A stretch of 64,000 bases of DNA from Flammeovirga sp. SJP92 (GTDB lineage Bacteria; Bacteroidota; Bacteroidia; Cytophagales; Flammeovirgaceae): the NCBI RefSeq assembly GCF_001583495.1, contig NZ_LQAQ01000012.1, forward strand, positions 1-64,000. Reading direction: 5' to 3'. Position numbers and translations under genes: made by a program. Numbering within the stretch: the stretch's first letter is position 1; every line of letters begins with the position of its first letter. This document shows, piece after piece, positions 46 to 18,760 of the stretch. Under the pieces are notes generated by a model, which was not told the origin of the DNA, did not search any database, and saw nothing but the letters and a program-made list of their open reading frames with translations.

Positions 46-732
46 CTAAAAAGCAAATCCTTTTCCTAGTTCTAAAAGGAATTGTTGAATATCATCGATC
101 AATGCTTTTTCTAATTCCTGTTCTGTATAAGCAAAGTTTGTTGGAAGATTTAGAAACTCTAACACAGAAGGATTTTTAATGAAATTCTCAGGATTGAGTT
201 CTAAGTCTTTTGTATTTTCTTTCATTTCCGACTCTACTAACTCCTTTGATGGAGAGTGTAATAGCCGTTGATAATACTGAGTAGATATATTTCTATCTAA
301 TGTTCGGACTGACCAATTTTGGTTTAGACTCTCCTCCAAATAATACCATTTAGCTTTAGGATCAGTAACTCTCATAATTCTACGATTATGACTCCATGTC
401 AATTGGCTACACAGTGTGTAGCTTTTTTGTAAAGTTGATTCATCAGAAGAATAAGTAAGATAAAATTGTCTGAAGTTTTTAATACTGGCTATTGAAAAAC
501 CCTTCCCAAACTCCTCCGTTAACTGCTTCGATAATTCTTTTATTAAATAGCTACCATACTTTGCTTTCGCTTCTCCTTTTTGTTCTTCTTCTACAATGCG
601 TTTTCCAATAGACCAATAGGCTTCTACCATCGCAGAATTAACTACTGAGTGAACTTTATTTTTTGCAGAAGCTAAGATTTGCTTTATTTCTGAATAGAAA
701 TTATGCTGTTGAGATGGTATTTGATTTTCCAT
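46..732 (-). pseudogene. YhcG-type (DUF1016) nuclease, C-terminally truncated
   Basis: The 228-residue product matches the N-terminal winged-helix region of YhcG/DUF1016 proteins: 'AYWSIGKRIVEEEQ' near the start, a 'GKGFSIASIKNFRQFYL' helix and the 'LCSQLTWSHNRRIMRV' segment, followed by the linker that leads into the nuclease domain. The family normally continues past 'LLELGKGFAF' into a PD-(D/E)xK nuclease domain carrying the catalytic residues, giving roughly 330-380 residues. Here a TAG stop follows immediately and the downstream 45 bases do not continue the domain in any frame I could read. The gene is therefore probably broken by a deletion or an insertion whose other side lies outside the window. 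The start ATG is at 732. A second remnant of the same family lies at 19979-20223. Family assignment is firm; loss of nuclease activity is an inference. Confidence 0.8.
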
Positions 733-1118: not shown

Positions 1119-1526
1119 TCAATCTAAAAATTTTTCTTTTAAGTCAGGGGTTAAAAGCATACAACTATCCTTCCTTCCAAACCATCTATAACGGTTCTTA
1201 GCGATATAATCATAAATATGATCTCTAATGAAAGGCGGAGTAATTAAAAATACAGCAGATAAATTTCTGGGAAAACCTAGTTTTAAAACAATGTTAAGAA
1301 CAGCAGTAGATTTTATATAGAATTTGTCCCCGACAGAATATACAATGGAATTATTAGGTTGAAAAGTTACAGATTTATTGTTGTGCAATAGCTGACTAGC
1401 GGTTTTTCCCTGTAGAGGAGCAAAGTAAAAGAGGTTCTTGCGATCATGCTTAATGATATATTGTATTGTAGAATCACAAAGGTTACAAACCCCGTCAAAT
1501 AAAATAATATGTTTTTTTTGATCCAT
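1119..1526 (-). CDS. DCC family (DUF393) thiol-disulfide oxidoreductase
   Basis: A 135-residue protein of the DCC/DUF393 family. It opens with 'IILFDGVCNLC', which holds the family's DxxCxxC signature (Asp11, Cys14, Cys17), followed by 'FYFAPLQGKTA', typical of the thioredoxin-like fold. The length is normal for the family. Proteins of this family are predicted to handle thiol-disulfide exchange; no substrate is known for this one. It is the last gene of a leftward operon: its ATG lies 6 nt after the stop of the outer-membrane protein gene. HTTM membrane proteins, one of which is encoded two genes upstream, are frequent neighbours or fusion partners of DCC proteins in bacteria. Family call is firm; role in modifying an exported cysteine peptide is speculative. 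Confidence 0.9.
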   Translation of the reverse strand: MDQKKHIILFDGVCNLCDSTIQYIIKHDRKNLFYFAPLQGKTASQLLHNNKSVTFQPNNSIVYSVGDKFYIKSTAVLNIVLKLGFPRNLSAVFLITPPFIRDHIYDYIAKNRYRWFGRKDSCMLLTPDLKEKFLD

Positions 1527-1532
1527 TTTACT

Positions 1533-4112
1533 TTACAATTTTATGGAAGTAGTTAAAAGTAAATAACCTAAATTGTTGTTCGTTGCAATTTGTGTCAACG
1601 TATTTCCAGATGAAATTGTATTGACATAATTGTAATTATTCAGCTTAAAAAGGGTGAGCAAAGATTGCCCAACCAATGAGAAGGATAATCGATCTGATAA
1701 GTCATATTTATAAGAAAAATGAAGATCTGGCACGTTGAATTCATCATCTTCAATACTATATTTTGTGAAAATAAAGTTCACATTCCAGATCGTTTTAGTT
1801 CCATGACCTCTAACAGAAAATGTATTGGTGATCACCGATTGTCTGTTGATCTCTTCATTATCTAACCAAAATATCATATGATTATAATTCAGTTCATTTG
1901 ACACTTCCTTGATGAAAAAACTTCGGGGCAAGAAGCTTATGTTGAGTGAAGGAACCCAAGCATCAGACCTGGAAGGGGTATTTACACTATTTACGGAGGT
2001 TGTATAATTGTTATAAGTGTAATCCAACTTACCGCCTAATTTAAGGAGATGATAGGATTTTCCGATATAGAAACCTTTTTGGTAGCCAGAACTTAGGGAA
2101 TGCGACTCTTTTTTATCAAATACTTGATTGGAGTAGTAAAAAACATTATTAGAAATAGAATCAAGTACATTCTGTAAAAAATCTTGTTCACGAGTGTACC
2201 TGTATATAATATGATTACTTTTGGATCGAGCAACATTGTTATTAAACCAACTCAATGACGCCTCATCTCTTGTCGCATATTGGTTCACATAGTCACTATT
2301 ATTGATGATAATTTGATTATAAGAACGCATCATCGTATCAAATAATACATGCAAATTATAAAAGCGATAATCACGGCCGGCACTGATACCTAAAGTGTTC
2401 TGCGTTTCAAAATTATAGGTAAGTGAATGATGCATTTTAAAAAAATTGCTATTCTTTGTTTTTTGAGTATGAATAAGCGTTGGTGTGGCTGAAAATGTAT
2501 AATCCAGTTTGTTTATACTTCCACTTAACGACAATGGAACATCCAAAATAGTGATATCTCGCTCTAAGCTTGTTGTGGTTGGTACATCATTATTAAAAGT
2601 CAAATGACCATTTTCAAGGTTTTTTGAAAGGTGTAGCCCCGTTTTAAGAGATGCTTTTTTGAATCTGAATTGCAGGTTAGCGAGAGTGGAAAAAAGTTGT
2701 TTTGAAGTCATCTCTTCTTGAGAAAGATCTGGAAAATTTATGTTCGTAAGAAGAGTAGTAAAATCACGGGTATTTCTCTCATTGAAATAATCAACATTGA
2801 GGTCAAAAGCAATGTTATCACTCAATAAGTGGGTAATTTTTAAAGCATTGGAAAGTGTAAAGTTCTTTGGCCTATTTTGGTTTAACTCTGTAAAAGTTGT
2901 CACCTCAGGTATGTACAATGTATTAAAACTTTTATTATCTCCCTGTTGATCTATAGTCATTGCACTCAATACATTTTGGAATACAGTTTTCTTAGAAAGT
3001 ATTCTACTATGATTTGCCGTCACTGAAATAAAATTTCCTTTATGTATGTTCTCCGTTTGTTTGTCCTGCGTCAACACATCTGCTACAAATGTGTTGACAT
3101 CTATTTTTCTTTCCGTTTGTATATTTCCATAGTAGAATACAACCCCTGTTTTACTATTAAGACCTTGCCAGCGAGTCGTTAAATTACTATTACTTACAAA
3201 GCTTTTAAAAGTGCGGGAATCGTCCATGAAAAATGGGCGTAATGTATTATTCAACGCACCCGTAGCATATTTTAAAACGGAAGAAGTTACATCTTTTTGT
3301 CCTAATTCCTTTTCCCCTACATTATTCGTATTTGTGGTTGCAAAAGCATTTAGCTTATCAGAAAAAAAGAACCCTTTTCCTTTTACAGCAAACTTTTCAG
3401 TATAGCCAATGCCTGCATCTATCTGTGCTTTAACAACTCCCTTAAACTCCTCTTTTGTGTCTATGTTGATCACAGGATCTTGTATACGCTTGAAGTCTAA
3501 AGTGAACTTATCTTTATAGTTATCGATAATTTGAACATTTTTCATTATCTCATAATTCAAATTATCCAATGCCACTTTATTTTGATTTATAAATACTTCT
3601 TTTCCATTAATTAAAACTTTGTTTATTTGTTTCCCTTGATATGAAATGGCACCTTCATCGCCGATTATTACTCCATCCGTTTTATTAAGCATTTCACGTA
3701 AAGTACTTTCTTTACTTAAATTCATATGTTCGGTATCCAAATTTAGTGTATCCGTTTCTTCTCGAAGCTCAACTACTACTTCTTTAAGTTCTGTTATACT
3801 TTCTTCTAAAGTAATTTCCACTGATTGTCCATTGAGTTGCAATGCCACTGTTTTTTCTTTAAAACCAATGGCAGTAACATTAATGGTGATTGTTTTCAAA
3901 TCAGAAGGAATTTTTAAAGAAAATTGGCCCTGTGCGTTACTGAAACCATAGGTTATTGGTTTTGACATATCCTCCTTAGGATAAGCAATAATATTGGCAA
4001 AAGGGACAACATCACCCGAAACACTTTTTATATCACCTGAAACACTTTTTTCTTGTCCAAATAGATTAAAAGAGTAAAAAATAAAAACAATAATACTATA
4101 CTGTTTCCACAT
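1533..4112 (-). CDS. TonB-receptor-like outer-membrane protein with carboxypeptidase-regulatory N-domain
   Basis: About 859 residues from the ATG at 4112, chosen because it begins a clean signal peptide (MWKQYSIIVFIFYSFNLFGQ); an ATG at 4160 would add 16 residues in front of it and overlap the HTTM gene more. The mature protein starts with a CarboxypepD_reg-like beta-sandwich ('VPFANIIAYPKEDMSKPITY', 'AIGFKEKTVAL'), then a plug-like region ('LREMLNKTDGVIIGDEGAIS', 'VLINGKEVFI'), then about 600 residues of alternating polar/aromatic strands expected of a beta-barrel. A TonB box is not obvious and the plug is short, so it resembles the outer-membrane beta-barrel proteins paired with GLPGLI proteins rather than SusC transporters. 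It overlaps the upstream HTTM gene by 17 nt and is followed 6 nt later by the DCC gene. Confidence 0.8.
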   Translation of the reverse strand: MWKQYSIIVFIFYSFNLFGQEKSVSGDIKSVSGDVVPFANIIAYPKEDMSKPITYGFSNAQGQFSLKIPSDLKTITINVTAIGFKEKTVALQLNGQSVEITLEESITELKEVVVELREETDTLNLDTEHMNLSKESTLREMLNKTDGVIIGDEGAISYQGKQINKVLINGKEVFINQNKVALDNLNYEIMKNVQIIDNYKDKFTLDFKRIQDPVINIDTKEEFKGVVKAQIDAGIGYTEKFAVKGKGFFFSDKLNAFATTNTNNVGEKELGQKDVTSSVLKYATGALNNTLRPFFMDDSRTFKSFVSNSNLTTRWQGLNSKTGVVFYYGNIQTERKIDVNTFVADVLTQDKQTENIHKGNFISVTANHSRILSKKTVFQNVLSAMTIDQQGDNKSFNTLYIPEVTTFTELNQNRPKNFTLSNALKITHLLSDNIAFDLNVDYFNERNTRDFTTLLTNINFPDLSQEEMTSKQLFSTLANLQFRFKKASLKTGLHLSKNLENGHLTFNNDVPTTTSLERDITILDVPLSLSGSINKLDYTFSATPTLIHTQKTKNSNFFKMHHSLTYNFETQNTLGISAGRDYRFYNLHVLFDTMMRSYNQIIINNSDYVNQYATRDEASLSWFNNNVARSKSNHIIYRYTREQDFLQNVLDSISNNVFYYSNQVFDKKESHSLSSGYQKGFYIGKSYHLLKLGGKLDYTYNNYTTSVNSVNTPSRSDAWVPSLNISFLPRSFFIKEVSNELNYNHMIFWLDNEEINRQSVITNTFSVRGHGTKTIWNVNFIFTKYSIEDDEFNVPDLHFSYKYDLSDRLSFSLVGQSLLTLFKLNNYNYVNTISSGNTLTQIATNNNLGYLLLTTSIKL

Positions 4113-4986
4113 GTTTTGCTTTTTCTTTAAGAGTACCATAAGCAGCAATATTCCATACAATCATGATAGCTGAAAAGGCATACAATTCCATCATAATGGC
4201 AATACTAACGTGCATTAATATTATAGCTGTAAGAGCATATTTCCTAGTTGGTTTTAAGAAGATCAACAAAGGATATAAAAACTCCAACAGTACTGTACCT
4301 ATCCCTACAAAAGTTAAAATTAAGGGCGAAATAGAAAAAAACGAATTATCTACAGAAGCAATCGCTTTCCAAACAGAATTGCCATTCCACCAACCAGGAT
4401 CCAACCCTTTGGATACTCCAGACAAACAATATGCAATCGCTAAATGAATTTGCAGTACACGTCTATAATTAAAATTTTCTTTGGATGCATATTTAAAAAT
4501 CTTCTCATCTATTGAATAGTACCTTCCAACAGGAAAAACGAAACAATAAAAAAGAGACATCGTGAGAAAATAATCATAGCCATAATTGAAAGGAGCAAAA
4601 CTTCTAAAAATAATAAGCTGAAGAAGCAATGCTAATAAAGCTGTATATCGGGTAAAAAATCCCGTCAATAAAGACAATAAAGCCAATATATAAATTGGAA
4701 CAGCCAATTTATAAAAAACAGCAGTAAGGTTATTTTCTTCTAAAAAAACGTAAAACACATGCAGATACTTAAAATAACCTGACTGTATATACATCAATTC
4801 TTGAGGAATAAGTGTGTTATACTGAGAAAAGAATAAATGCAAATCGGGAAATAATGAAGTAATTTCAATTATTGCCACGAGGCTAATAGCAACTCTATAA
4901 AAAACTAAAAATGGAATTATACTTTCTTTTACAGCAAATAGTTTTTCTAAGCTATTGTACAGGGAATTGACCTTCTTGAACAACAT
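4096..4986 (-). CDS. HTTM domain (vitamin K-dependent carboxylase-like) membrane protein
   Basis: A 296-residue polytopic membrane protein. Hydrophobic segments include those around 'VFYRVAISLVAIIEI', 'LAVPIYILALLSLLTGFF', 'LLALLLQLIIF', 'FLTMSLFYCFVFPVG' and two near the C-terminus. The motif 'HLAIAYCLSGVSKG' followed by 'PGWWNGNSVW' (about residues 176-206) is the hallmark of the HTTM domain, the membrane part shared with vitamin K-dependent gamma-glutamyl carboxylases. The lumenal extension of the animal enzymes is absent, as usual for bacterial HTTM proteins, so no carboxylase activity can be claimed. The start overlaps the end of the upstream 208-aa gene by 35 nt and the 3' end overlaps the outer-membrane protein gene, indicating translational coupling. 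Confidence 0.85.
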   Translation of the reverse strand: MLFKKVNSLYNSLEKLFAVKESIIPFLVFYRVAISLVAIIEITSLFPDLHLFFSQYNTLIPQELMYIQSGYFKYLHVFYVFLEENNLTAVFYKLAVPIYILALLSLLTGFFTRYTALLALLLQLIIFRSFAPFNYGYDYFLTMSLFYCFVFPVGRYYSIDEKIFKYASKENFNYRRVLQIHLAIAYCLSGVSKGLDPGWWNGNSVWKAIASVDNSFFSISPLILTFVGIGTVLLEFLYPLLIFLKPTRKYALTAIILMHVSIAIMMELYAFSAIMIVWNIAAYGTLKEKAKHVETV

Positions 4987-5578
4987 ATAATTGGGGTTTA
5001 ATTGTTTTTTTCTTTTGCCATATATCTTGCGGAACGAGCGTTAAAAGCTCAATTTTATAAGAATCACATTTAGGCATGTTTTTAACTTCATTTTTCCCGT
5101 ACCATTTTAAGACTTTTGCTACATAATCTTTTCTAAAATTATAATGCTCTCTCAATCGGATAGTTTTCGGATTCTCATCTTCGAAAGAGGTTGTATCTGA
5201 TTTTATTAACTTATCTGTATCAGCTACATAATTGGAGAAAAATGATGCAAACCCTTCTAATCTAGAAATACCATTAGAAGTAGAAAGGTTAAAGTACCTA
5301 TCCGTTTTCAATACATTATCAGTAGAATCTAAATAATAAGCTCTAAAATATTTTTCTGTTGAAGTATGGATTCCATAAAAACCATACCCTGTATTGATTC
5401 CAGTAATTACGTAATAAAAATCTGTATGTTGGTTCTGTTTTAATAAACTAATAACGGGTATATCTACACTTTTATCATGATAAAAAGATAGATAAGCATC
5501 AAAAGTTGCCCAAGATGCATGAAAAAAAATAAGTAATAAATGGCTGAAATAAAGTAAAATACGTATTTTCTTTTTCAT
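4952..5578 (-). CDS. membrane-anchored protein of the HTTM operon, unknown function
   Basis: A 208-residue protein with one N-terminal hydrophobic segment after a Lys-rich start (MKKKIRILLYFSHLLLIFFH), so probably an anchored periplasmic protein. A glycine/aromatic motif 'GINTGYGFYGIH' follows, then a soluble, mostly polar domain ending in 'QEGQFPVQ'. It is the first gene of the operon and overlaps the HTTM gene by 35 nt. In actinobacteria a small membrane-anchored protein (DUF5819) commonly precedes HTTM genes; this protein occupies the same position and has a similar build, but I cannot show homology by eye. Function unknown. Confidence 0.75.
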   Translation of the reverse strand: MKKKIRILLYFSHLLLIFFHASWATFDAYLSFYHDKSVDIPVISLLKQNQHTDFYYVITGINTGYGFYGIHTSTEKYFRAYYLDSTDNVLKTDRYFNLSTSNGISRLEGFASFFSNYVADTDKLIKSDTTSFEDENPKTIRLREHYNFRKDYVAKVLKWYGKNEVKNMPKCDSYKIELLTLVPQDIWQKKKTIKPQLYVVQEGQFPVQ

Positions 5579-6152
5579 TATTCAAAGTATATTATAAATT
5601 ATCTAAGCTTTCATCTCTATAAAAAAACCTTAATATTTAATTGACAATCACAACTTTAAGACATAAAAAGGTTAAGTATTATAAATTACACAGTGATATT
5701 AATCTCAGAATAATTCAAATCTATTATCTACCTTTAAATGCTACTATAAAGTATGATTATACCAATTACATAGTTCATCACCCTCGTTTGTATAAACCGA
5801 GGTAATGATATATCCACTATAAAAAGAGATTATTAAATGTGAAATACGATTATAAAAACACAAGATACTATTAGATAAAACTGAAAATAATTTGTAAAAG
5901 AAACTTAGACAAATCAAGTTCAAAATTATCAGCATCTTAACCAGGATACATCTAAACAATTGAAAATGAATAAAATAACCTCGACTTATTATCAAGTGAT
6001 GATAAAATTAATTAAAAAAACAACTGTCTAATATCTGAATAAGGTTACAATAACTTATGCTACTCAGAGTGAGAGTATAAAAATGTGTCGGCTTATATAA
6101 AAAGATGAAAAGTATATGTATGAAATTTATTATTCGTATTTATAGTATAAAA
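5579..6152. other. intergenic, no gene seen
   Basis: 574 bases, very AT-rich, between the GLPGLI gene and the HTTM operon. A leftward 83-codon frame (5744-5995) is present but is rich in Ile/Leu/Phe/Tyr as expected for random AT-rich DNA and has no family resemblance, so it is not called. The promoter of the HTTM operon should lie here, but I see no good TTG-N19-TAnnTTTG match. Confidence 0.4.
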
Positions 6153-6956
6153 TCAATTATTCTCTTTATAAGGCTTTTTATGATTATGTTCATAAAGTGA
6201 TCTTGCCAAATCTCCTTTCTTTATTAGTAAAATCGGTTCTTTGTCATAGTGTTTACCCTGTTCTTTCTCTCTTTCAAAGTGATCTAACTTACTAGAATAT
6301 AGAGTTTTAAAAGCTTCTTTTTCTTCTGTATACTCAATACTATGTAATTTTATTGTTCTAAAATAATCTTCTGCAAGAATTATTAACCCAGGTAATCCCT
6401 GATAAACTGAAGGGCCATTGGATATAGGAATATCTTTAGTATACCAAACAATAAGCATAGGGTAATTTTTGGCTTTACTTTTTGCTTTTTTACAATTCAA
6501 ACCATTTATTTTTTTTTCTTCATTAGTCAATTCCCACTCTATATTTCCTACTTCCCCTTCTGAAAAGAACGTTTGGTTCATAATCCATTCGTGTTTTAGT
6601 GTTTTTTGCAAAGGGGTTTTAAGCGTAAATAAAACGGTATCGACCAAAGATGCTCTAATTCTTGGATTTTCCCACCCTAAAGGTCTTACTTGTACTGTAG
6701 AGTCCAAAATGTATACAGAAGAATAATCTTCTAGATTAATATACAAACTATAATAGTCAGTAATACCTTTCATAAACTCATAGGTAGAAGCTTTTGATGG
6801 AGTGGAAACCATTTGATCTTCAGTCATTCTATATTGACTTATGGGAGAACTAGTATATGTTACTTTTACTACTTCATTTTTTTTTGATTGTCCCCAAACG
6901 GTTATTGTCGTGAAAAGTAAAAAGAAAGGAATGAGAGATCTTTTAAACTGTGTCAT
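6153..6956 (-). CDS. GLPGLI family exported protein
   Basis: A 267-residue protein with a signal peptide (residues 1-22, ending in 'TITVWGQ'). The literal family motif occurs in 'YQGLPGLIILAED' near residue 182, preceded by the expected 'MLIVWYTKDIPIS.GP' segment and followed by a 'RTIKLHSIEY' strand. This places it in the GLPGLI family (TIGR01200), a Bacteroidota-specific periplasmic family of unknown function, often encoded next to outer-membrane proteins with CarboxypepD_reg domains. Such an outer-membrane protein is encoded in this locus at 1533-4112. A TACTTTTG element at 6978-6985 on the same strand resembles a -7 box but lacks a correctly spaced TTG. Confidence 0.9.
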   Translation of the reverse strand: MTQFKRSLIPFFLLFTTITVWGQSKKNEVVKVTYTSSPISQYRMTEDQMVSTPSKASTYEFMKGITDYYSLYINLEDYSSVYILDSTVQVRPLGWENPRIRASLVDTVLFTLKTPLQKTLKHEWIMNQTFFSEGEVGNIEWELTNEEKKINGLNCKKAKSKAKNYPMLIVWYTKDIPISNGPSVYQGLPGLIILAEDYFRTIKLHSIEYTEEKEAFKTLYSSKLDHFEREKEQGKHYDKEPILLIKKGDLARSLYEHNHKKPYKENN

Positions 6957-7188
6957 TTGAGTTTAATATTTTTCAATAATCAAAAGTATAAGTAAAGACC
7001 CTCTATTTTACTTAAATAGAGTCTATTACGGTTTGTTTTGTAAAGAATTTTCGAGTTACGATAACCTTTAAAAATAGTATTAAAAAACACTTTTTGAGTA
7101 AAGCTAAGAACTTAGAAAGTTCTACTATTGCAAACTGTGATAAGGTCTGATATAAAATTAAATAAGAACAGAGGGTCTAGAATTTGAA

Positions 7189-7428
7189 TTAATACTTACT
7201 CAAGACATCTGTCATCAATTCAGGAGAGAGTGCATCTTCTGTCCAAGTATTATCACACTTACTGAAAGTGTTTTGTGTTTCCATTTTAGTCGAACACTTA
7301 CCAGCAGCCGCTAGCATAGCTTGAGTGTCTAACAATTCACCCATTGAATTGTTTTTTTGAACTGGAGTAAATGCAAAAGCCACGAATGTAAGGGCTATGC
7401 CTGTAGCTGAAAGAAATACTTTCTTCAT
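7189..7428 (-). CDS. small exported two-cysteine peptide precursor
   Basis: A 79-residue protein with a lysine-started hydrophobic leader (MKKVFLSATGIALTFVAFAF) and a short polar remainder containing exactly two cysteines (Cys45 and Cys58, spaced by 12), ending 'DVLSKY'. The segment 'GELLDTQAMLAAAGKC' resembles in layout, though not in exact sequence, the leader-end motif of NVEALA-type small exported peptides of Bacteroidales. The gene stands alone with about 230 nt separating it from the GLPGLI gene on the same strand and with a 689-nt gap upstream. Because it is the only small secreted thiol-bearing protein near a DCC thiol oxidoreductase and an HTTM enzyme, it is a candidate substrate of that operon; this is inference only. 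Coding status is supported by the clean signal sequence and ATG. Confidence 0.7.
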   Translation of the reverse strand: MKKVFLSATGIALTFVAFAFTPVQKNNSMGELLDTQAMLAAAGKCSTKMETQNTFSKCDNTWTEDALSPELMTDVLSKY

Positions 7429-8117
7429 AATTTTAGTTTTAAGGTGATTTACGATGTTATTATAGTTTAAATATTAATTGGCTAAAAGAAATTTAAGATT
7501 CTCTCAAAAAAAATTATTTAAATTAAAATTTAGTTAGTTTTTTAATTAGAATTTAGTCAGTTAGCTTTTTTATTTATTAAACTACAATGGTGCTATAGCG
7601 ATTCAATTTTAATATAAATTTTAATCAGTAAAAAATAGTTTAACATTATTTACAATTTAAAATAACTCACAAATTCCACAAAAATCACCTCTTATTTATG
7701 GTTGAATTTTATCACTTTTTCAATAAGTAGTTTCATAGCTCAAATACTTTTTAATACCCCGTTTTTTCACCTATACTTTGTTCCATTCTGAAGATTACAA
7801 ATATTACTTTTCATCATTTAAACGTGCCTTAAAATAGTATTTAATTTATTTTTGGGTTATTCTGATACTTCTAGGGGTAATTCTAATTGATCCTGTTTTA
7901 CCTTCAGTAAGTAGTTTAATATATACCTCTTTTTTCTTATACCTAATGTGCTAATTTCTTGCATTTTCAGATGAATTAATTGAATACTTACATCCGTAAT
8001 CTTCAAAATAATGTATGCTGTTTTGATTTTGTATATTAATTTTAAAATTACTTTCTATAAAACAGAAACAATACATTTTTAATCAACTTCCATTAAAATT
8101 TCACTTTCAAACAAGCA
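7429..8117. other. intergenic, divergent promoter region
   Basis: 689 bases between two divergently transcribed genes (peptide leftward, RecD2-like helicase rightward). Extremely A+T-rich. A loose tandem similarity (two copies of an AATTTAGTnAGTT core about 25 nt apart near 7528-7560) is present; I cannot assign it a function. No coding frame or RNA fold recognised. Confidence 0.4.
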
Positions 8118-10649
8118 ATGGAAAAATTCAAAGGCATAGTACACCGCGTTACGTATCATAACAAAGAAAATGGATGGACAGTCATCAGGGTAAATCCTGC
8201 AGACAGACCTCATGAACAAATCACTGTTACGGTGCATCAAGCGAATGTTTTTGCGGGGGCTACCTTAGAATTTGAAGGAGAATGGACTACTCATCCTAAA
8301 TTCGGTGATCAATTTAAAGCTCATTCTACCATTGAGAAAAAGCCAGCAAGTTCGTCTGCTTTGGAGAAGTATATCGGTTCTGGGTTGATTTATGGTGTGG
8401 GGCCTAAAATTGCCAAACGGATTGTCAATCACTTCGGGAAAGATACTTTGGAAGTTTTTGAAGAGAACATTGAGCGGTTGACGGAAGTGACGGGAATTGC
8501 CACCACAAAACTGGATCAGATTAAAGCTTCATGGACAGAACACCGTGAAATCAGAAATGTGATGCTTTTCCTTCAAGAGTTTGGAGTAAGTACATTGTTC
8601 TCTGTCAAAATTTATAAGACTTATGGGAACGATGCGATCAAGATTCTAAAAGAAAATCCTTACCGCCTTTCGAAAGATATTTATGGAATTGGTTTTTTCT
8701 CTGCAGATAAAATTGCTTTGAGTATGGGAATTGCCAAGGACAGCCCTAAAAGAATGAGAGCGGCGATCAGTCATGTGCTTTCAGCAAGCCGAGAACAAGG
8801 GCATTGTTATCTTGAACTGGAAATCATTCATCAAAATGTAAAAGTATTACTCAAAGAAGATTTCAAAGAGCTGGTGATTTCTGAAATTGAGGCCATGGAA
8901 AAGGACAATGACCTCTGTACAAGAATGAAGCAAATGGGTGAATTGGAAGTCAAATGCTATTATTCTAAATCCCTTTTTTACGATGAATTGAATACTGCCA
9001 AGATTGTCAAATCCTTTTTAAAGGAGAAAGTAAATGTGGATGCTGAACGTGTAAAAAGATGGCTGGATTTATTCAATTCCAAACAGCAATTCCCTCTGAG
9101 TGATGAACAGTTTGATGCCGTTTACGGGGCAGTTCAGCAATCTTTTTCGATCTTAACCGGCGGACCTGGATGTGGTAAAACAACGACAACGAAAGCTTTG
9201 GTAAAATTACTTTTAGCCATGAAAAAGCGTGTTCTGTTAGCGGCTCCTACAGGTCGTTCGGCACAGCGTATGGGAGAAGTAATCGGAAGAGAAGCACAAA
9301 CCATTCACCGCCTATTAGTATGGCAACCCAATACAGGTCAATTCAAAAAGAACGAAGAAGACCCATTGGAAGTGGACTTTATCATTATCGATGAATGCTC
9401 TATGCTTGATATTTCCATTTCAGCTTCACTGCTCAAAGCCATTCCAAAATCTGCCCAAGTGCTCTTTATCGGCGACCCTAATCAGTTGCCTTCCGTGGGT
9501 GCTGGAAACGTGCTGAAAGATTTGATAGAAAGTGAAGTAGTGCCTTGTTTCCACCTTAAAAAAGTATTCCGTCAGGCACAAGAAAGTCAGATTATCAAGT
9601 TTGCCCATCAAATCATAAAACGACAAATTCCTAGAATAGAATCTCCTATCAACTCCCCTAAAATATGGGAAGAAAATATGGATTGCTTATTTATTGATTC
9701 GGATGAAGCGACAAAAGAGCAAACGCAATTCATCAAGAAAATGACGCAATCCATGAAGTATGTAATCCAAAACGAAGGAGTTGCTTTTGTCAAAGAAAAA
9801 GGTGCAAATGGAGAGGATGACACTTACAAATCCGTAATTCAAGAAGACGATATTTATATTCACAACACCTCTGAAAACGAGATTGAAGAAATCAGAAAAA
9901 CGGGCGGAAGATCTTTTGTATTCCATATTCCTAATCATTACTTGCACGCTGATTTACAGACTTTGATTCAATCAGAGGATCATGCATCTGCTCTGAAAAC
10001 AATCATGGAGGAAATTCACCCTTGGTCGAGTTTGCATTATGGATTTGTGGCTTCGGAAATGGTCGTTCGACTTTATGGCAAAACCATTAAAGAAAAGGTG
10101 GGTGCAAATTTAGAAACGCAAATTCTCACACCAATGACCGTAGGAAGTATGGGTGCTAGAAATTTGAATCAATTGGTACAAGCGACTTGCAACCCTGAAG
10201 CACAAGGGAAAGCGAGCCTTACGATAGGTGATCGTATTTTCAGAATGGGAGACCGAGTGATTCAAAAAAGAAACAACTACGACCTTGAAGTTTTCAACGG
10301 TGATATCGGCAAAATTTCATCTATAGACACTGCAAACGTTCAACTAGCTGTTGATTTTGGGACGAGTGAAAATGCCAAAACGGTGTATTATGAAAAGCAA
10401 GATATCATTGATCTTGACTTAGCGTATGCTATTACCATTCATAAATCTCAGGGTAGTGAATTTGACGTAGTAATCATCCCCGTTGTGATGCAACATTTCA
10501 ATATGCTCTATCAAAACTTGATTTACACGGCACTTACCAGGGCAAAGAAAATGGCAATTTTTGTGGGTACAAGAAAGGCTTTTGGTATTGCAGTGAGGAA
10601 TATTGATAATAGAGCGAGGAAGACGATGCTAAAGGAGATTTTGCAGTAA
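8118..10649 (+). CDS. RecD2-like SF1B DNA helicase
   Basis: An 843-residue protein. The N-terminal part (1-80) is OB-like ('GIVHRVTYHNKENGWTV'), followed by helix-hairpin-helix segments ('GSGLIYGVGPKIAKRIV' about 87-103; 'LTEVTGI'), as in RecD2. The helicase core follows: Walker A 'GGPGCGKTTT' (348-357), 'LAAPTGRSAQRM', Walker B/DExx 'FIIIDECSM' (421-429), 'FIGDPNQLPSVGAGNVL', 'VFRQAQES', and near the C-terminus 'YAITIHKSQGSEFD' and 'YTALTRAKK'. These are SF1B 5'-3' helicase motifs. It is about 100 residues longer than typical RecD2 because of an extra polar insert between 'VFRQA' and 'ILTPMTVGSMGARNLN'. It stands alone and faces the SNF2 gene, separated by a 36-nt perfect palindrome. It is likely a RecBC-independent helicase for repair or recombination. 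Confidence 0.9.
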   Translation: MEKFKGIVHRVTYHNKENGWTVIRVNPADRPHEQITVTVHQANVFAGATLEFEGEWTTHPKFGDQFKAHSTIEKKPASSSALEKYIGSGLIYGVGPKIAKRIVNHFGKDTLEVFEENIERLTEVTGIATTKLDQIKASWTEHREIRNVMLFLQEFGVSTLFSVKIYKTYGNDAIKILKENPYRLSKDIYGIGFFSADKIALSMGIAKDSPKRMRAAISHVLSASREQGHCYLELEIIHQNVKVLLKEDFKELVISEIEAMEKDNDLCTRMKQMGELEVKCYYSKSLFYDELNTAKIVKSFLKEKVNVDAERVKRWLDLFNSKQQFPLSDEQFDAVYGAVQQSFSILTGGPGCGKTTTTKALVKLLLAMKKRVLLAAPTGRSAQRMGEVIGREAQTIHRLLVWQPNTGQFKKNEEDPLEVDFIIIDECSMLDISISASLLKAIPKSAQVLFIGDPNQLPSVGAGNVLKDLIESEVVPCFHLKKVFRQAQESQIIKFAHQIIKRQIPRIESPINSPKIWEENMDCLFIDSDEATKEQTQFIKKMTQSMKYVIQNEGVAFVKEKGANGEDDTYKSVIQEDDIYIHNTSENEIEEIRKTGGRSFVFHIPNHYLHADLQTLIQSEDHASALKTIMEEIHPWSSLHYGFVASEMVVRLYGKTIKEKVGANLETQILTPMTVGSMGARNLNQLVQATCNPEAQGKASLTIGDRIFRMGDRVIQKRNNYDLEVFNGDIGKISSIDTANVQLAVDFGTSENAKTVYYEKQDIIDLDLAYAITIHKSQGSEFDVVIIPVVMQHFNMLYQNLIYTALTRAKKMAIFVGTRKAFGIAVRNIDNRARKTMLKEILQ

Positions 10650-10672
10650 AAGCCTAGTACTATATTCTGCAT

Positions 10673-10708
10673 ATCATTAGCCCACGATTTAAATCGTGGG
10701 CTAATGAT
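10673..10708. repeat. 36-nt perfect palindrome between convergent genes
   Basis: Arms of 18 nt (ATCATTAGCCCACGATTT and its exact reverse complement) meet without a loop. It lies between the 3' ends of the RecD2-like and SNF2 genes. There is no clear T-run (TTTT only after 10710), so it could act as a bidirectional terminator or be a single REP-like hairpin; its AGCCCA...TGGGCT frame resembles the hairpins at 32877-33055. Confidence 0.75.
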
Positions 10709-10724
10709 GTTTTAAAAGTTACGA

Positions 10725-13571
10725 TTATTCTATCTCTGATAATTTCACCATCTCTTTCAATTCAGCATCACTTAAGTTGCCAATCCAAGTTTCCCCTTCG
10801 GCTACAGTAAGGTCTGATAGTTCTTTTTTACTTTGGATCATTTTGTCGATTTTCTCCTCGATTGTTCCCTTACAAATCATGCGATGTACCATCACATTTT
10901 TATTTTGCCCGATACGGTAAGCCCTATCTGTTGCTTGTGCTTCCACCGCCGGATTCCACCACAGATCAAAATGAATTACATGATTAGCCGCCGTAAGGTT
11001 TAAGCCTGTCCCTGCCGCTTTTAAAGAGAGAATAAATATGTTATCCGTTCGGTTATCTTGGAAATTGGACACCATTTCATCCCTATTTTTTCTCGATGAA
11101 CCACCATGCAAGAATTGCGGTTTCTTCTTCATTCGGTCTTCAATCCACTTTTGTAATAGATCTCCCATGGTTTTGTATTGCGTAAAAATCAATACCTTCT
11201 CCCCTTTCTGAACAATCTCTTCTACCAATTCAAACAGACGTTGTACTTTGGTAGAATGCATCGGGTCTTCTTCCTGATTACTCTTCAGTAATAAGTTAGG
11301 ATGATCGCACACTTGTTTCAAACCAAGCATCATTTTGAGCACCATTCCTCTTCTCGCACTTCCATCATTCTTTTCAATCTCTTCTAATGCGGATTGCACA
11401 AATTCCTCATATACCACCACTTGTTCAGGTGCTAGGTTGATAAACTGATTTTTCTCGATTTTATCCGGCAAATCAGAAATAATGCTCTTGTCCGTTTTCA
11501 CCCTTCTTAAAATAAAAGGCTGAGTGATTTTTTTGAATCGTTCCAATACCTTAAAGTCTTTGTCTTGCTGTATTGGCTTTGCAATGTTTTTGGAGAAATT
11601 AGACAGCGTTCCCAAGTAGCCTTTGTTGGCAAAATCCATGACCGACCAGTATTCCGACAGGCGGTTTTCTACCGGCGTACCACTCATACCTATATAAGTA
11701 TCAGCTTTGATAGACTTAATTAATTTGGTTTGCTGGGTGGCAGTATTCTTAATATTCTGTGCTTCATCAATCACCATCACCGCCCATTTCAACTTCTTCA
11801 GTTCGTCTTTAGAATTACGCACCATACCGTAAGTCGTAATCAAAACATCAAAATCATCTGCAAATTTTCGTTTTGCTCCATGATATACAAAAGCTGAAAG
11901 ATCCGGAGCAAAACGTTCGATTTCTGATTCCCAGTTGGTCAATAAACTAGTAGGCACGACAATCAACGCTTTCTTGCTTTTAAAGTAATTTTCGGTCTTC
12001 AATTTCAACAGCAAAGTGATCACTTGAAGGGTTTTCCCTAACCCCATATCATCAGCAATCAAACTACCAAAACCTACCTTAGTATTGCGGTACATCCACT
12101 CGAAACCCGCTTTCTGATAAGGTCTCAATGTCGCTTGAAGCCCTTCCGGTTCATGAATTTCTTTTACATCGGTTATCTGACGGATTCCTTTCTTCAATTC
12201 ATTGGAAAACGTCAATGGACTGCCTTGAATCTCTTCAGAAAATAAAGCTTGACTGATTTCATTAGCTTTAAAAGCAGGAGGCGTTTCCAACTCTTTCAAT
12301 AACTGTTTCAGCTCTTTTTGATCAAAAAGAACATACTGATTATTTACTTTCACCAAGCCTGACAGATGAGCGTATTTTTTCATAAACTCTTCTCTAGAAA
12401 TTTGCTCATCACCCAAAGCCACCTGCCATTTGAACCTCAACAACTTCTGTAAATCCATAAAACTTTCGACTCCTTCATCTACTGACTCCGAAGTATCAGC
12501 TTTCAATGACTTGCCCGGTTGTAATATTTTTCTCAATACCTTCGGCATCATCAAGTTGATTCCTAATAATTCTATTACAGGAAAAATATCGAATAATACA
12601 CTGACGATTTCAACATTGTCATACATCAACGGCATTTGTCCTTTGGAATTGATATGCTCTTTTAATGCCGGAAAATAAGACGCCACCAAGAGTAAATCCT
12701 GCAACAGATCAAACTTGAAAGCTTTGTATTTTTCATCCTTCCAAAAAGTTGCCAATGCAATAGGTTCCAATGCCTCTCCCTCCTTCTCTATCATTACATT
12801 GACGTAATAATTTTCGTCTACCTCTTGTAGCTGAATTACAGGAACGTATTCTTTATGTACAATCTGAAATTTCTGTAACCACTGATTAATACTTCTTGGC
12901 ACTTCTATCTCTCCAACACCATTAAATTGTTCTTTTCTATTATAGAAAAAGAGATTCAAAAGACGACCTTCTGCATTTAACAGCACCGTATCTTTTGATA
13001 AAAAATCTTGTAGAAATAAATGACACAACACATTTACTCCTTCTTTTTTACTCAAATGCTTTACTCCAGTGCTCGTTTTTACTGAGATATTCTGATGCAA
13101 CAAATGTTCTTGTACTTCTTCTATCACCGCCTTTACTTCCTTAGAAAAAGTAGCAGGTACCCACTGAATAAAATAATCCTCGTCCCGTTGTAATAATCTT
13201 GGAAAAAACGCCCCTTTATTCAACAATTTCAAACACAAAAGATAGATATTTCTCAATTGCCGAATAAACAACGGAAACTGATTTTTCTCCTCCTCTTCCA
13301 TCTGAGTGATGATATTCAATAACTCTTTTTGTGGTGCTTCTTTTGATGAGAAAACAGGAAAGAATTGATTATTTTCTAAGCCTAAAACCGACCATAAGTT
13401 AAGTGTCTCATCAAAAACCAAGTTGACCGTATCCTTATTTTTGATTTTCTCCAACAAGTCCTCATTCCTTCCCACCTTTATTTCCTTCTTGGTCAGTCGG
13501 TGTACTTTTTGGTAATTTTTATATAGTACATTTTTAAAATCACCTTCCGAAAAATGCGGTTTTTCTTCCAA
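10725..13571 (-). CDS. SNF2-family DEAD/DEAH helicase, N-terminus disrupted
   Basis: About 948 residues are open from a TTG codon at 13571. The C-terminal half is a complete SNF2 ATPase: Walker A 'DDMGLGKT' (about residue 507), 'VIDEAQNIKN' (about 604), 'MSGTPVENRLSEYWS', 'TQPFILRRVK', 'IFTQYKTMGDLL', 'SLKAAGTGLNLTAANHVIH' and 'ATDRAYRIGQ' (about 886). The N-terminal 480 residues are the poorly conserved region preceding SNF2_N in bacterial SNF2 proteins. No ATG starts the frame. Upstream, an ATG at 13667 opens a same-frame peptide (MSDISELEAIVNRW) that hits TAG at 13619-13617, while the +1-shifted frame between reads 'DQLDFSALPDLTREC' and runs into this frame at a T6 run (13570-13575). The natural start is probably 13667 with two compensating frameshifts. 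A paralogue lies at 48184-51099. Confidence 0.85.
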   Translation of the reverse strand: MEEKPHFSEGDFKNVLYKNYQKVHRLTKKEIKVGRNEDLLEKIKNKDTVNLVFDETLNLWSVLGLENNQFFPVFSSKEAPQKELLNIITQMEEEEKNQFPLFIRQLRNIYLLCLKLLNKGAFFPRLLQRDEDYFIQWVPATFSKEVKAVIEEVQEHLLHQNISVKTSTGVKHLSKKEGVNVLCHLFLQDFLSKDTVLLNAEGRLLNLFFYNRKEQFNGVGEIEVPRSINQWLQKFQIVHKEYVPVIQLQEVDENYYVNVMIEKEGEALEPIALATFWKDEKYKAFKFDLLQDLLLVASYFPALKEHINSKGQMPLMYDNVEIVSVLFDIFPVIELLGINLMMPKVLRKILQPGKSLKADTSESVDEGVESFMDLQKLLRFKWQVALGDEQISREEFMKKYAHLSGLVKVNNQYVLFDQKELKQLLKELETPPAFKANEISQALFSEEIQGSPLTFSNELKKGIRQITDVKEIHEPEGLQATLRPYQKAGFEWMYRNTKVGFGSLIADDMGLGKTLQVITLLLKLKTENYFKSKKALIVVPTSLLTNWESEIERFAPDLSAFVYHGAKRKFADDFDVLITTYGMVRNSKDELKKLKWAVMVIDEAQNIKNTATQQTKLIKSIKADTYIGMSGTPVENRLSEYWSVMDFANKGYLGTLSNFSKNIAKPIQQDKDFKVLERFKKITQPFILRRVKTDKSIISDLPDKIEKNQFINLAPEQVVVYEEFVQSALEEIEKNDGSARRGMVLKMMLGLKQVCDHPNLLLKSNQEEDPMHSTKVQRLFELVEEIVQKGEKVLIFTQYKTMGDLLQKWIEDRMKKKPQFLHGGSSRKNRDEMVSNFQDNRTDNIFILSLKAAGTGLNLTAANHVIHFDLWWNPAVEAQATDRAYRIGQNKNVMVHRMICKGTIEEKIDKMIQSKKELSDLTVAEGETWIGNLSDAELKEMVKLSEIE

Positions 13572-13695: not shown

Positions 13696-14553
13696 TCAAC
13701 CCTCTCCCCCAATCAAAACCTCCTGCTCCAAACACTTTTTATGATGATGAAATAGATCAACCAACCTTTTCATCCTTTCATCTTCTACACTTAATTTTCT
13801 TTTATTCAACTGAAGATCATACAAATTCCTATTCCCATATTTCTGGAGCAATTCTTTGATATTTGGAGGGATAAAGAAAGAAGCCCTTTCTCCTAAATAC
13901 TTATGATATTCATTTTGGAAAATGCCAATTCCTTCAAAGTCAAAATCGCCGAAATGAAGGTAGGAATTGGGAATGGATTGAAGCCATTGTATCAAATCTT
14001 TGGATTGGGATTGAGGATAACGACTGACAAATAAAACCTTTTGATCTTCAAAAAGATACTTTTGTTGTTCGATCATTTTAAAGTTTTCGGCATTCTCAAC
14101 TCCTACTATTGTAATCTCCTTATCTAAAGTGAAATTTTCATAATCGCTGATAAAAACAAAGCTCCCAAAAGCAGGTTGAAGTATCAATTCCTCTCCATTT
14201 AAAACTGCTGAAATAGGCTCATAGCAATTCACCAAAAAGCCTTTAAAAGTTCTTATTTTGGTGGATTTAGAATTAGAAGACACTTTGGTGTTATCGGCTC
14301 TACTCTCTCCAGTTTTGAAATTATCTATGTAGGCCAAAAGGTCATTTATTCCCAATTGATTTTTTAAATAAAATTTCAATTGAGAAGGATCTTTGCAGGC
14401 TATTTTACGTCTTGTTCGTCCTTGAGTAGAAGATTGTAAAATACCATCTTGAAGCATTTGTTCAAAAGGTGCTCCTTTCAATTGACTCCCCGAAATCACT
14501 TCTCCTTGACTTAATTGTAATAACTTTTTGGCTTTACTTTCAGATAACTTCAT
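13696..14553 (-). CDS. jetD: Wadjet JetD-like Toprim nuclease subunit
   Basis: A 285-residue protein, last gene of the four-gene condensin operon. A Toprim-like core is visible in the second half: 'ITIVGVENAENF' with Glu153, and 'HFGDFDFEGIGIF' with the Asp203-x-Asp205 pair, as in topoisomerase VI-type Toprim nucleases and JetD. The N-terminal 130 residues look like a winged-helix/adaptor region ('LQDGILQSSTQGRTRRK'). In Wadjet systems JetD is the nuclease that cuts circular plasmid DNA after loop extrusion by JetABC. The protein is shorter than most described JetD proteins (about 350-400 residues). Its ATG overlaps the jetC stop as TAATG, implying translational coupling. The symbol is assigned by synteny and active-site motifs; the subtype is not determined. 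Confidence 0.82.
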   Translation of the reverse strand: MKLSESKAKKLLQLSQGEVISGSQLKGAPFEQMLQDGILQSSTQGRTRRKIACKDPSQLKFYLKNQLGINDLLAYIDNFKTGESRADNTKVSSNSKSTKIRTFKGFLVNCYEPISAVLNGEELILQPAFGSFVFISDYENFTLDKEITIVGVENAENFKMIEQQKYLFEDQKVLFVSRYPQSQSKDLIQWLQSIPNSYLHFGDFDFEGIGIFQNEYHKYLGERASFFIPPNIKELLQKYGNRNLYDLQLNKRKLSVEDERMKRLVDLFHHHKKCLEQEVLIGGEG

Positions 14554-17500
14554 TACGCTTTAGAGATAATTTGTCGAACCATCGTTTTATGCCCTGCCAC
14601 TTTATCCAAATGATAAATATGACCATAATCCAACTGATTATTTGTTTCAGGCGATCCGTTCAATACTATAATGTTTCGTTCATTGGCAAACCTCAACAAG
14701 CCTTTCACGTTGGTAGAGTGCAATTTTCCAATCTCATCCATAATGATATGCAATTGGAATTCTTTAAACTTCCTCGAAGCACCTTCCTTAAAGACATTCA
14801 ATAACATGATATTCAACATGGCTTTTACCAAAATATCTGTTCCTTCAGAACCCACATTTTTCAGTTTCTCAATCCAACCAGTATCGTTGCCATTCTCTTC
14901 TATTTTAAATAAAATATGAATGGTATCCGACAACAACAATTTCCCAGTTTTTGATTTTCCTATTTCATCTTTCAGGTACTTCAACAGCTTGACGGCATTC
15001 CTATTGATCTTATTCAAATCTTTGTTCTGAGTAAAAAGATTTGCAACACCTAAAGAACTATTATTCTCTTCCTGAAACTCCTTGATTCTCTTCAAAACAC
15101 TGATAATTGGATTTCTACTTTCCTCCAATTTCAGCTCAATATTAGTGACTGCACTAACAAAGTTCTTCAGCTTAAAGTCCTTATTGATCTTTTTAATGAC
15201 TTGATCTATCTCTGCCGTTTTCTTTAAAAGATCCTGAGTTTCTGTACCGAAAATATTGATGATATTGGCAAATCGTTCATTGAAAATTTTCTCTATTTCT
15301 GAAATCTTATCCTCACGAACAAACTCTTTCAGTCGCTCACCAGTATCTCTTACGCCTTTACTTTCTAATTCCTCTACAGATGGGAATTTAAGCACTGAGT
15401 TGATTGTAAACTTCCCTAAGTAATTTTTCAGTTTGGTGTAAAGCGTGTTTTTCTTTTCCTCCAAAGTATCAAAGGTCTGATACACTTTTCGATGCAGTTC
15501 ATCAAAAGTCAAATCTCCTTCCAATGAAGTTACCGTAGTTGCATATTCTTCCAACGCAATCAGCTTATCATCGTCTTTCTGATCTGCATAAATCTTGAGC
15601 TCTGCTTCATACATTTGGATAGATTGATTGATCTTGAAAAGCTGTTGTTTTACTTCTTTATGCTTCTCTTCTAAAACATTCAAAGAATTAGAAAATTCAG
15701 CCACCAAATTATTGAGCTTTTCTTCTTCATGAAGCATTTCATTTTCAAACGTTTTCTGCTTGTCGATAAACTCACGCTTGTCTTTATCATATTCAAAAAC
15801 CAATTGCTGATGTTTTTGAATATAGTCTAACTCTGCTTTATGATTTTTAATTTGAAGCGACAGTTTTTCAAGGTGTTGTTTATCCACTCCTTTTCCAGAG
15901 AGTTCCTCATTTTTCTGTTCAATCAGTTCTTCAATTTCATTTCTAATCTCCTGTTTATAGTTTTCGATCGCTAATCGTAGTCCGTTTTCTTTCTCTTGAA
16001 AATCCTTTTTAAACTGATTCAAACGTCTTGTTTTTTCTTTACGCTTGACCTCTTTCTGTTGCTTTACTCCTTCCTCAAACGAACTTAATTGTTGTTTTAA
16101 TTCTTCCAGCTGAAGCTGAATGCCCTTCAAATCTTTATTAAGCTGAACTAATTGTAATTCCTTTTCTTTCTGTCCTTTTTCTTTCCACTCTTCCAATAAA
16201 ACTTCTTGGCGTTCCTTTTCCTTTTTATTTTTCTTAATGGTATTATTGGACACCTCCACAAAGGTCTTCAGCTTATTAATTTGAGGCTGATATTTTTTCT
16301 TTAGGTTTTGTTCTTTCTTGATTAACCCCTGATCTAATTCACTCGACTCCTTCCTTACTTTTTCAATCTCACCTAATGTATCTTTCAACTGTTCCTCCAA
16401 TAGCGACAATGAAAAAGATTTTCCTTCTATCGTTTTCAAATCAATACCTACTCCATAAAATGAAGTAGCTAACTGCTCTAATACCTGAGGGTTAAGTTCA
16501 TCATGAAATAATAAATCTTGATCAATAACTTTACCGATATTCTCTGACCAATCTTTTTTATAATTCGTCAACCAAGCCAAAAGGGTGTGATTGTATTTTT
16601 GAATTTTACCCTCTAAATCCTTTTTCGTTTGAGTCAGTTGCTCAAAACGCTGATTCAAATTAGCTCGTTCATTTTCAACCTCTTTTTGATAGATTTCTAA
16701 TTCATGCGTCCAGCTGATACGAAGTCCCTCTATTTCCTGTTCAGACTTCAGCACTTCTTGTGCTAATGTATTCGTTTCCTCTATTCCTTTTTGAAGTAGC
16801 TTTTTTACTTGTTCAATTTCAGATTGATAAAATTGCTTATTTCTACACTCATTGATCTCAATTTGTTTCTCCGATTTGTTGTTTTGAACTGTAGAAAAGT
16901 GTTCTTGTAAAGCAATTCTTTTGTCAGCATTGGTCTCATCCAACTGATCAAATAATTGTTCGTACTCTTGATTTAAACCTCTCTCCTGCTCAATTAATTT
17001 ATCTTTCAACTCACCTATTGAAGCCTCTTTCTGCTGAATAAATACAGATTGTTCTGCTTCCTTTTGAGCTTGGAGTGATTTGTATTTCACTTCTATATCT
17101 TGATACTGACTAGTAAGCGAAGACTCTTCTGATTCAAGATTTTTAAGTTTGATTGCAATACTTGGACGCTCTTTTACTCGACGTTCTACCTCATGAATAT
17201 TTTGAGATTGATAATACTTTTTCTTTTCTCTCGTCTTTTTAAGATTATCCCTTAATACACTGATTTTTGAAACTATCGTCTCTTTCCTTTTAGAATGCAA
17301 CGACATTTCATGAGCTATTTTATCACTCAACTTCACCTCATTTTGAGAAAGTAGATCTGCATTATCTTTTAAGGCAGGTAATTGATCATTCAACCATTTT
17401 TCTCTGCTGTACAACTGACTATACAAAGAATACAACTGACTATCCACATCATCTAATTCGAGTAAAACCTCAAAAGATTGCTCTAAAATTTTTACATTTT

Positions 17501-18197: not shown

Positions 18198-18199
18198 GT

Positions 18200-18760
18200 T
18201 TAGTTTTCGTTTGTTGTTGGTTCTTCAATATCAATGCTCAAAATCAATTCTTCGAGGTAAGAAAAAGAATTCAATACTTTGTAAGTCATAGAAAGGTCAT
18301 CAATCACTTCCACAAAACCTTCCTTTTTTAAGATCTCAAAAAGTTCGTTCACACTCTCATCGTATTTCTCTTTTTTAGTGATCCTTTTTAATAAATTGAG
18401 TTTATTTTTCAGGTTCTGATTTACCCCAATAATAGATGAAATTTCTGAAGGTGTGATTTGCGTTCCTACTCCAAAAGATTCATCATACGACTTGAAAAAG
18501 TCCAAAATACTGATCCATCGCATCGCCCTTTCCAACTTACTTTTGAGTGTGCTCTTTTCCTCCTCTCTACTGAAATAAAAACAGTCCTTCCCTTCCACTA
18601 AATAAAAACCAATCTGATCAAAATAATCCTGTGTCGCTTCCTTCTCTTTTTCTAAATACTGATAGAGTTTCTTCTGTGTAGAATTGATAGAGTTTGAAGA
18701 AATAAAATGTCCTTTACTCAAGATTTCAAAAATTTGTTTGTTATAGTTTTCTCTAGGCAT
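18200..18760 (-). CDS. jetB: Wadjet JetB / MksE-like subunit
   Basis: 186 residues from the ATG at 18760, which I prefer over an upstream in-frame codon at 18790 because it overlaps the jetA stop by only 8 nt (ATGCCTAG) and has an A/G-rich stretch (AAAAGAAAGAAAT) just before it. The sequence is mostly helical with winged-helix-like parts ('QIFEILSKGHFIS', 'YFDQIGFYLVEGKDCFYFS', 'TPSEISSIIGVN', 'LFEILKKEGFVEVID'), the layout of MukE/MksE/JetB, which dimerise on the kleisin and bind DNA. Its position between a kleisin-like and an SMC-like gene supports the call. Sequence conservation is weak in this family, so the identity rests partly on synteny. Confidence 0.83.
   Translation of the reverse strand: MPRENYNKQIFEILSKGHFISSNSINSTQKKLYQYLEKEKEATQDYFDQIGFYLVEGKDCFYFSREEEKSTLKSKLERAMRWISILDFFKSYDESFGVGTQITPSEISSIIGVNQNLKNKLNLLKRITKKEKYDESVNELFEILKKEGFVEVIDDLSMTYKVLNSFSYLEELILSIDIEEPTTNEN

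Follow-up and report, generated by a model that had tools for sequence, protein, structure and literature searches.

The 64,000-nucleotide stretch of DNA of the marine bacterium Flammeovirga sp. SJP92 analysed here (the window; the host genome is an 8.49-Mb draft) contains six minus-strand genes, transcribed in the order precursor peptide, GLPGLI family protein, protein A, protein B, CarboxypepD_reg protein and DCC protein, which probably form an SdpABC-like peptide-maturation operon with B as a reduced GGCX-type module and the tagged peptide as its substrate. The 79-amino-acid precursor (7189..7428) has a signal or anchor segment, a core with two cysteines (Cys45 and Cys58) and the C-terminal end LMTDVLSKY (residues 71-79; 7192..7218), the proposed recognition element. 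It is followed by the GLPGLI protein (6153..6956), predicted to be exported, by A (4952..5578), a membrane-anchored protein in the SdpA position with a TGxxxGYGFF/Y motif, and by B (4096..4986), an HTTM-like membrane protein remotely related to SdpB. The last two genes encode an outer-membrane-type protein with a CarboxypepD_reg-like domain and a presumed barrel (1533..4112; the ATG is at 4112, and longer starts exist) and a DCC1-like thiol-disulfide oxidoreductase-type protein with a CxxC motif (1119..1526), an optional accessory. A and B overlap by 35 nucleotides and B and the barrel gene by 17, and 6 nucleotides separate the barrel and DCC genes, as had been recorded in a first-pass annotation made from the sequence alone.

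A profile search of genome contigs with the B alignment gave 94 relatives, and 80 loci were kept. Seven loci constitute the window clade: the window, F. aprica, two from Kordia, Flavivirga, Galbibacter and Weeksellaceae MIP2422. Neighbourhood comparison showed the order peptide-GLPGLI-A-B-barrel in the six loci besides the window, except that in Galbibacter B is shortened and the barrel reduced to a fragment; Weeksellaceae MIP2422 has four GLPGLI copies. The peptide, the GLPGLI protein, the anchored protein, the HTTM protein and the outer-membrane-type protein are one conserved unit, and the first-pass proposal that the peptide and GLPGLI genes belong with the HTTM operon agrees with their conservation beside it in all six. 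Neither Pfam nor NCBIfam models matched the peptide at E ≤ 0.1. It is nevertheless a real gene, since homologs with invariant Cys45 and Cys58 occupy the same position in the six other loci and the ratio of nonsynonymous to synonymous substitution rates (Ka/Ks) against F. aprica is 0.34; the two-cysteine peptide of the first-pass annotation, with these as its only cysteines, therefore stands. Ka/Ks against F. aprica was below 1 for all six genes (0.08 to 0.44, the DCC value coming from about 11 changes).

When the B alignment was compared with seven standard Bacteroidota SdpB proteins, hhalign gave a probability of 97.9% (E 6.4e-13 over 256 columns), and the SdpB model TIGR04033 matched 21 of 32 B relatives at E ≤ 0.01 (best 9e-9). 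The HTTM model PF05090 matched 18 of the 32 at the same threshold and did not match window B at E ≤ 1, so that the HTTM label proposed earlier is upheld by the relatives and the predicted fold and not by a model match of the window protein. The predicted fold of B is that of the HTTM membrane module of GGCX, the vitamin K-dependent gamma-carboxylase of human blood clotting; its 296 amino acids align to GGCX residues 41-326 only, and the lumenal substrate-binding domains are absent. Lys193 of B (codon 4408..4410) is aligned with K218, described as the catalytic base of GGCX in PMC12589487, and a lysine is found there in 32/32 relatives.

Of 86 loci, 83 have an A gene next to B; in Chitinophaga rhizophila the two are fused. 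A is modelled as one N-terminal membrane helix followed by a small alpha/beta domain (pLDDT 85.7, pTM 0.64), and G60, G64 and F67 are invariant in an alignment of 33. The 33 A proteins have no Pfam or NCBIfam family of their own, apart from one weak TMEM128 match.

Precursors were sought by script in the upstream gene chain of 83 A genes, a count that excludes L023 (the same as L015), L017 (the same locus as L088) and the degraded L018; an A gene is absent from L030 and L080. A small signal-bearing open reading frame (ORF) was present for 74 of the 83, and a tagged small ORF for 70, the tag being defined as two hydrophobic residues, any two residues, Y/F/H and then at most five residues. Among control ORFs in these loci, the same rule was satisfied by 22 of 549 long ones and by 105 of 738 further small signal-like ones, the latter set including spurious ORFs and missed paralogs. 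An alternative count of 51/54 is inflated, only tagged ORFs having been kept where the chain had one, and 70/83 is the figure to use. By eye, eight more A genes (L019, L029, L047, L054, L056, L082, L100 and L102) have a tagged or near-tagged precursor that fell outside the limits of the script. That leaves five: in L020, L026, L027 and L074 minus the small ORF has no tag or a poor one, and none was found for L064. The consensus of the tag across the family is L[DN]x[IV][LI]xKY. The precursors comprise many unlike sequences (96 of them fall into 11 BLAST clusters, the largest with 69 members), and some lie in tandem. A tag profile trained without the window clade scored the window tail with an empirical p of 0.0125 against 561 long ORFs, and the F. 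aprica and Galbibacter tails outscored all 561. A search based on A returned five loci (one of them, L127, is taken to be L059 and hence not new; a sixth, L133, is left out of the count), each with a small secreted ORF just upstream, tagged in three and with an unlike tail in two. At L046, L068, L077 and L047, at least three unlike or near-identical small precursors accompany each A-B pair, as expected of a peptide arsenal.

We propose that the N-terminal signal takes the 79-residue precursor across the inner membrane and that A and B recognise this precursor in the membrane, most likely through the amphipathic C-terminal KY tag. B would work as a GGCX-type HTTM module minus the lumenal domains; because it keeps the base lysine and residues lining the vitamin K pocket of GGCX, menaquinol is its proposed cofactor and would drive either cleavage of the peptide or its covalent alteration. 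Bacteroidota use menaquinone, and menaquinol is the vitamin K2 of these bacteria. A would provide the periplasmic substrate-binding part that in GGCX is on the same chain. The two-cysteine core would be released and then carried out or displayed by the GLPGLI protein and the barrel, the likeliest use being antagonism or signalling between close relatives. The first-pass annotation had the locus mature the peptide by oxidation or another modification; a general maturation role fits the kinship of B to SdpB and GGCX, whereas oxidation by the DCC protein is not supported (see below). That annotation did not include the C-terminal tag, the likeness to SdpABC or the match to the catalytic lysine of GGCX. 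More tentatively, the operon may exemplify a class scattered through the Bacteroidota in which a menaquinol-driven, stripped-down carboxylase-type enzyme acts on small secreted peptides with little in common beyond a C-terminal KY docking tag, the form in the window sending its product over the outer membrane through GLPGLI and barrel proteins.

Several results weigh against reading the locus as an SdpABC-like maturation operon with a GGCX-type B. Window B had no TIGR04033 match at E ≤ 1 (cut-off 178.4 bits), and window A reached no SdpA model at that threshold, with none in its own genome; no NCBIfam model, the SdpA model TIGR04034 (cut-off 53.1 bits) included, matched any of the 33 A proteins at E ≤ 0.01. 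The comparison of A with SdpA was weak (hhalign probability 6.5%, E 0.0056), its score being reached by 0 of 120 full shuffles but by 2 of 120 shuffles that kept the anchor. It places GYGFF on GWAFF, and the link of A to SdpA through position, anchor and this motif is suggestive only. The Glu-binding residues N159/H160 of GGCX are not kept; YGxD stands there in B, and for this reason carboxylation as such is not predicted. The tag is uneven in the window clade, where the tails of both Kordia, Weeksellaceae MIP2422 and Flavivirga do not score, and a divergent A-B group (L020 13431-14330, L128 4149-4352, L129 5253-5483 and L074 minus) has tagless precursors of 67-76 amino acids, in tandem in L020, with tails like EWTFVSxxYVY or DWVLVKGCECDSK. 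By hydropathy scan, no hydrophobic toxin segment like that of most standard SdpC is present in the precursors: the maximum over 15 residues past residue 30 was 0.7 in the window peptide, at most 1.4 in 47 of 48 tagged relatives and 2.0 in one, compared with 1.9 to 3.4 in ten and 1.3 in two of the 12 SdpC-position proteins of L119-L125. No immunity-like gene was recognised among the six by family matches, no search aimed at SdpI having been made. Many of the 83 loci are closely related and the counts are not independent, 29 of the 84 rows of the B tree belonging to one Chryseobacterium/Flavobacterium clade.

It is unlikely, though worth serious weight, that the locus carries out plain SDP-like toxin processing, with A and B only escorting or cleaving the precursor, B non-catalytic or assisting a protease, and the product a bacteriocin against close relatives. 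According to PMC6818787, maturation of SdpC into the SDP toxin requires SdpA and SdpB, and groups of SdpC homologs vary in the toxin part; an SdpABC-like toxin system is reported for a member of the Flavobacteriaceae in PMC6421346. An arms race would also suit the patchy occurrence (2/9 genus genomes), the tandem unlike precursors within one locus, and the fall of the synonymous rate (Ks) against F. aprica along the operon from 0.60 at the peptide to 0.05 at DCC, the peptide core changing fastest. What tells against toxin processing is that the precursors are hydrophilic and without an SDP-type hydrophobic segment, that no immunity gene was found by family matches among the six (the search was not a dedicated one), that peptide Ka/Ks is below 1, and that the invariant catalytic-type residues of B favour chemistry.

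The barrel bears on a second account, in which A and B mature a signalling or surface-display peptide and the CarboxypepD_reg barrel, instead of exporting this peptide, serves as its receptor or anchor. The window protein matched CarbopepD_reg_2 (33.3 bits, cut-off 32.2) in its N-terminal domain only; no solved structure matched the barrel portion, which is presumed from sequence type. Of what the first-pass annotation termed a TonB-receptor-like barrel, models reach the N-terminal domain only. The DCC, GLPGLI and CarboxypepD_reg labels are confirmed by models on the window proteins themselves; the HTTM and barrel labels are not reached by such models. Throughout the window clade an outer-membrane-type protein follows B (as a fragment in Galbibacter), and outside this clade barrel-profile matches adjoin A-B in L019, L020, L065 and L082, with a short fragment in L091; these outside matches and the lack of a toxin-like segment would suit display. 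Yet the profile found only 17 ORFs in 86 loci and nothing near most A-B pairs, and antagonism accounts better for the patchy distribution and the rapid change of the core, which makes display improbable.

In the version that follows the first-pass annotation, the two cysteines are joined in a disulfide by the HTTM and DCC proteins, and the oxidised peptide is presented by the barrel; we consider this account slightly more improbable still. In its favour, the two cysteines are invariant in the window clade, DCC has a CxxC motif, and precursors with at least two cysteines occur at 16/16 scored GLPGLI loci compared with 36/58 without GLPGLI, although the loci are not independent. The DCC protein is a clear family member (PF04134, 90.9 bits, cut-off 27.8, E 1.7e-25). 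It was not found, however, in the sequenced stretch around five of the seven window-clade loci, whose peptides keep both cysteines. There is no association of DCC with cysteines, since among the 74 A genes with a scored precursor at least two cysteines were present at 11/17 loci with DCC and 41/57 without it, and DCC stands beside cysteine-free precursors in L065, L091, L096 and L097. A further GLPGLI locus, L074 minus, has a cysteine-free precursor, and the unscored GLPGLI locus L027 has one with two. Cysteines are not the common theme of the family, because 22 of the 74 scored precursors have fewer than two. L027 (4625-8417) holds four consecutive GLPGLI copies, the first two separated by one peptide gene.

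Very improbably, the peptide and GLPGLI genes are chance neighbours of the A-B operon, as the gaps of 232 (peptide-GLPGLI) and 574 nucleotides (GLPGLI-A) in the window might suggest, for six other loci preserve the order and have homologous peptides, GLPGLI and A lie 6 nucleotides apart in both Kordia and overlap by 17 in Flavivirga, and apart from this GLPGLI gene nothing in the genome matched TIGR01200 at E ≤ 0.001.

Returning to the operon as an SdpABC-like maturation unit, its distribution suggests movement between lineages. In the B tree (84 rows), the window groups with flavobacterial sequences (support 100/100), and the B of L020, from another genus of the window's own family, is distant and on a long branch; horizontal transfer of the operon is for this reason likely. 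The operon is patchy in the genus, being present in two of the nine genomes drawn (its own and one other). With own genome included throughout, A was present in 6/395 phylum genomes by a narrow profile and 4/395 class genomes by a wide one, and B at E ≤ 1e-5 in 12/291 genomes of the order, five of these being weak matches to longer frames of 454-526 amino acids. A degraded copy lies in L018 (genome G193, 7788-11510), with GLPGLI and barrel open, B in pieces and no A found; transposase-like ORFs, IS30-like by eye, flank it on both sides. In a Hymenobacter plasmid record, a B relative is labelled 'HTTM domain-containing protein' and the two preceding genes 'hypothetical protein'. No description of the system or of the KY tag was recognised in the literature searched, which was mostly open-access and in which even the broadest searches cannot show absence.

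Beside the operon at the contig start is a YhcG/DUF1016 nuclease-type gene (46-732, minus strand; PADLOC PDC-S02) with its C-terminal nuclease domain cut to 45 of 157 positions. On the other side, a RecD2-type helicase gene (8118-10649, plus strand) adjoins the peptide gene. In four congeners nothing matched the helicase at E ≤ 1e-100, so the neighbourhood of the operon may itself be accessory. Farther along, at 13696-19964 on the minus strand, are DUF7281 (JetD-like), DUF3584 (JetC/MksB-like) and MksE genes, and an ORF without a match (18753-19964) occupies the JetA/MksF position; we take this set to be Wadjet/Mks-like.

To our knowledge the chemical role of SdpA and SdpB is still open, though both are needed for the SDP toxin. 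The fold and catalytic residues of B tie SdpB-type proteins to a solved human enzyme, the precursors are numerous natural candidate substrates that share a tail, and the locus provides GLPGLI proteins with a partner that can be tested. If the proposed maturation is correct, Bacteroidota would make secreted peptides by a new route, and quinone-linked modification of peptides would extend beyond the known carboxylases; the more tentative scattered class, if real, would give GLPGLI proteins a function and SdpB a chemistry.

The closest known systems are SdpABC and YitPOM of Bacillus subtilis (TIGR04034 for SdpA, TIGR04033 for SdpB) and the standard Bacteroidota SdpABC loci L119-L125. Common to these and the window are a secreted precursor beside a small anchored protein and an HTTM membrane protein, and a B homologous to SdpB, the K...W..G region included. 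By visual inspection, a DCC-like ORF comes immediately after standard SdpB in L120, which has four SdpC-position precursors, and another lies two genes downstream of it in L123. Unlike SdpABC, window A and B fall below the SdpA and SdpB models, the precursors are hydrophilic and often KY-tagged, and the window clade adds GLPGLI and a CarboxypepD_reg barrel; no immunity gene was identified, none having been searched for. With GGCX (HTTM family PF05090), B shares the predicted membrane-module fold and equivalents of K218, W223 and F299. GGCX recognises its secreted substrate through a propeptide distant from the modified site; B is without the lumenal propeptide-binding domains, has YGxD in place of N159/H160 of the Glu pocket, and is accompanied by A as a separate protein, fused only in the one Chitinophaga locus. 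In linaridin clusters, an HTTM protein (CrdG of corynaridin) is assumed to take part in maturing a secreted peptide by an unclear mechanism, according to PMC9927463. That cluster carries other enzymes, and CrdG is compared with B here by its HTTM label and presumed role. We know of no peptide-maturation role for members of the GLPGLI family. The window protein is a clear member (TIGR01200, 98.2 bits, cut-off 50, with a match to the PNGase F-II N-domain as well) and here the family travels with A-B, which it joins at three places in the B tree: the window clade, nine Chryseobacterium, and the L020/L074 pair.

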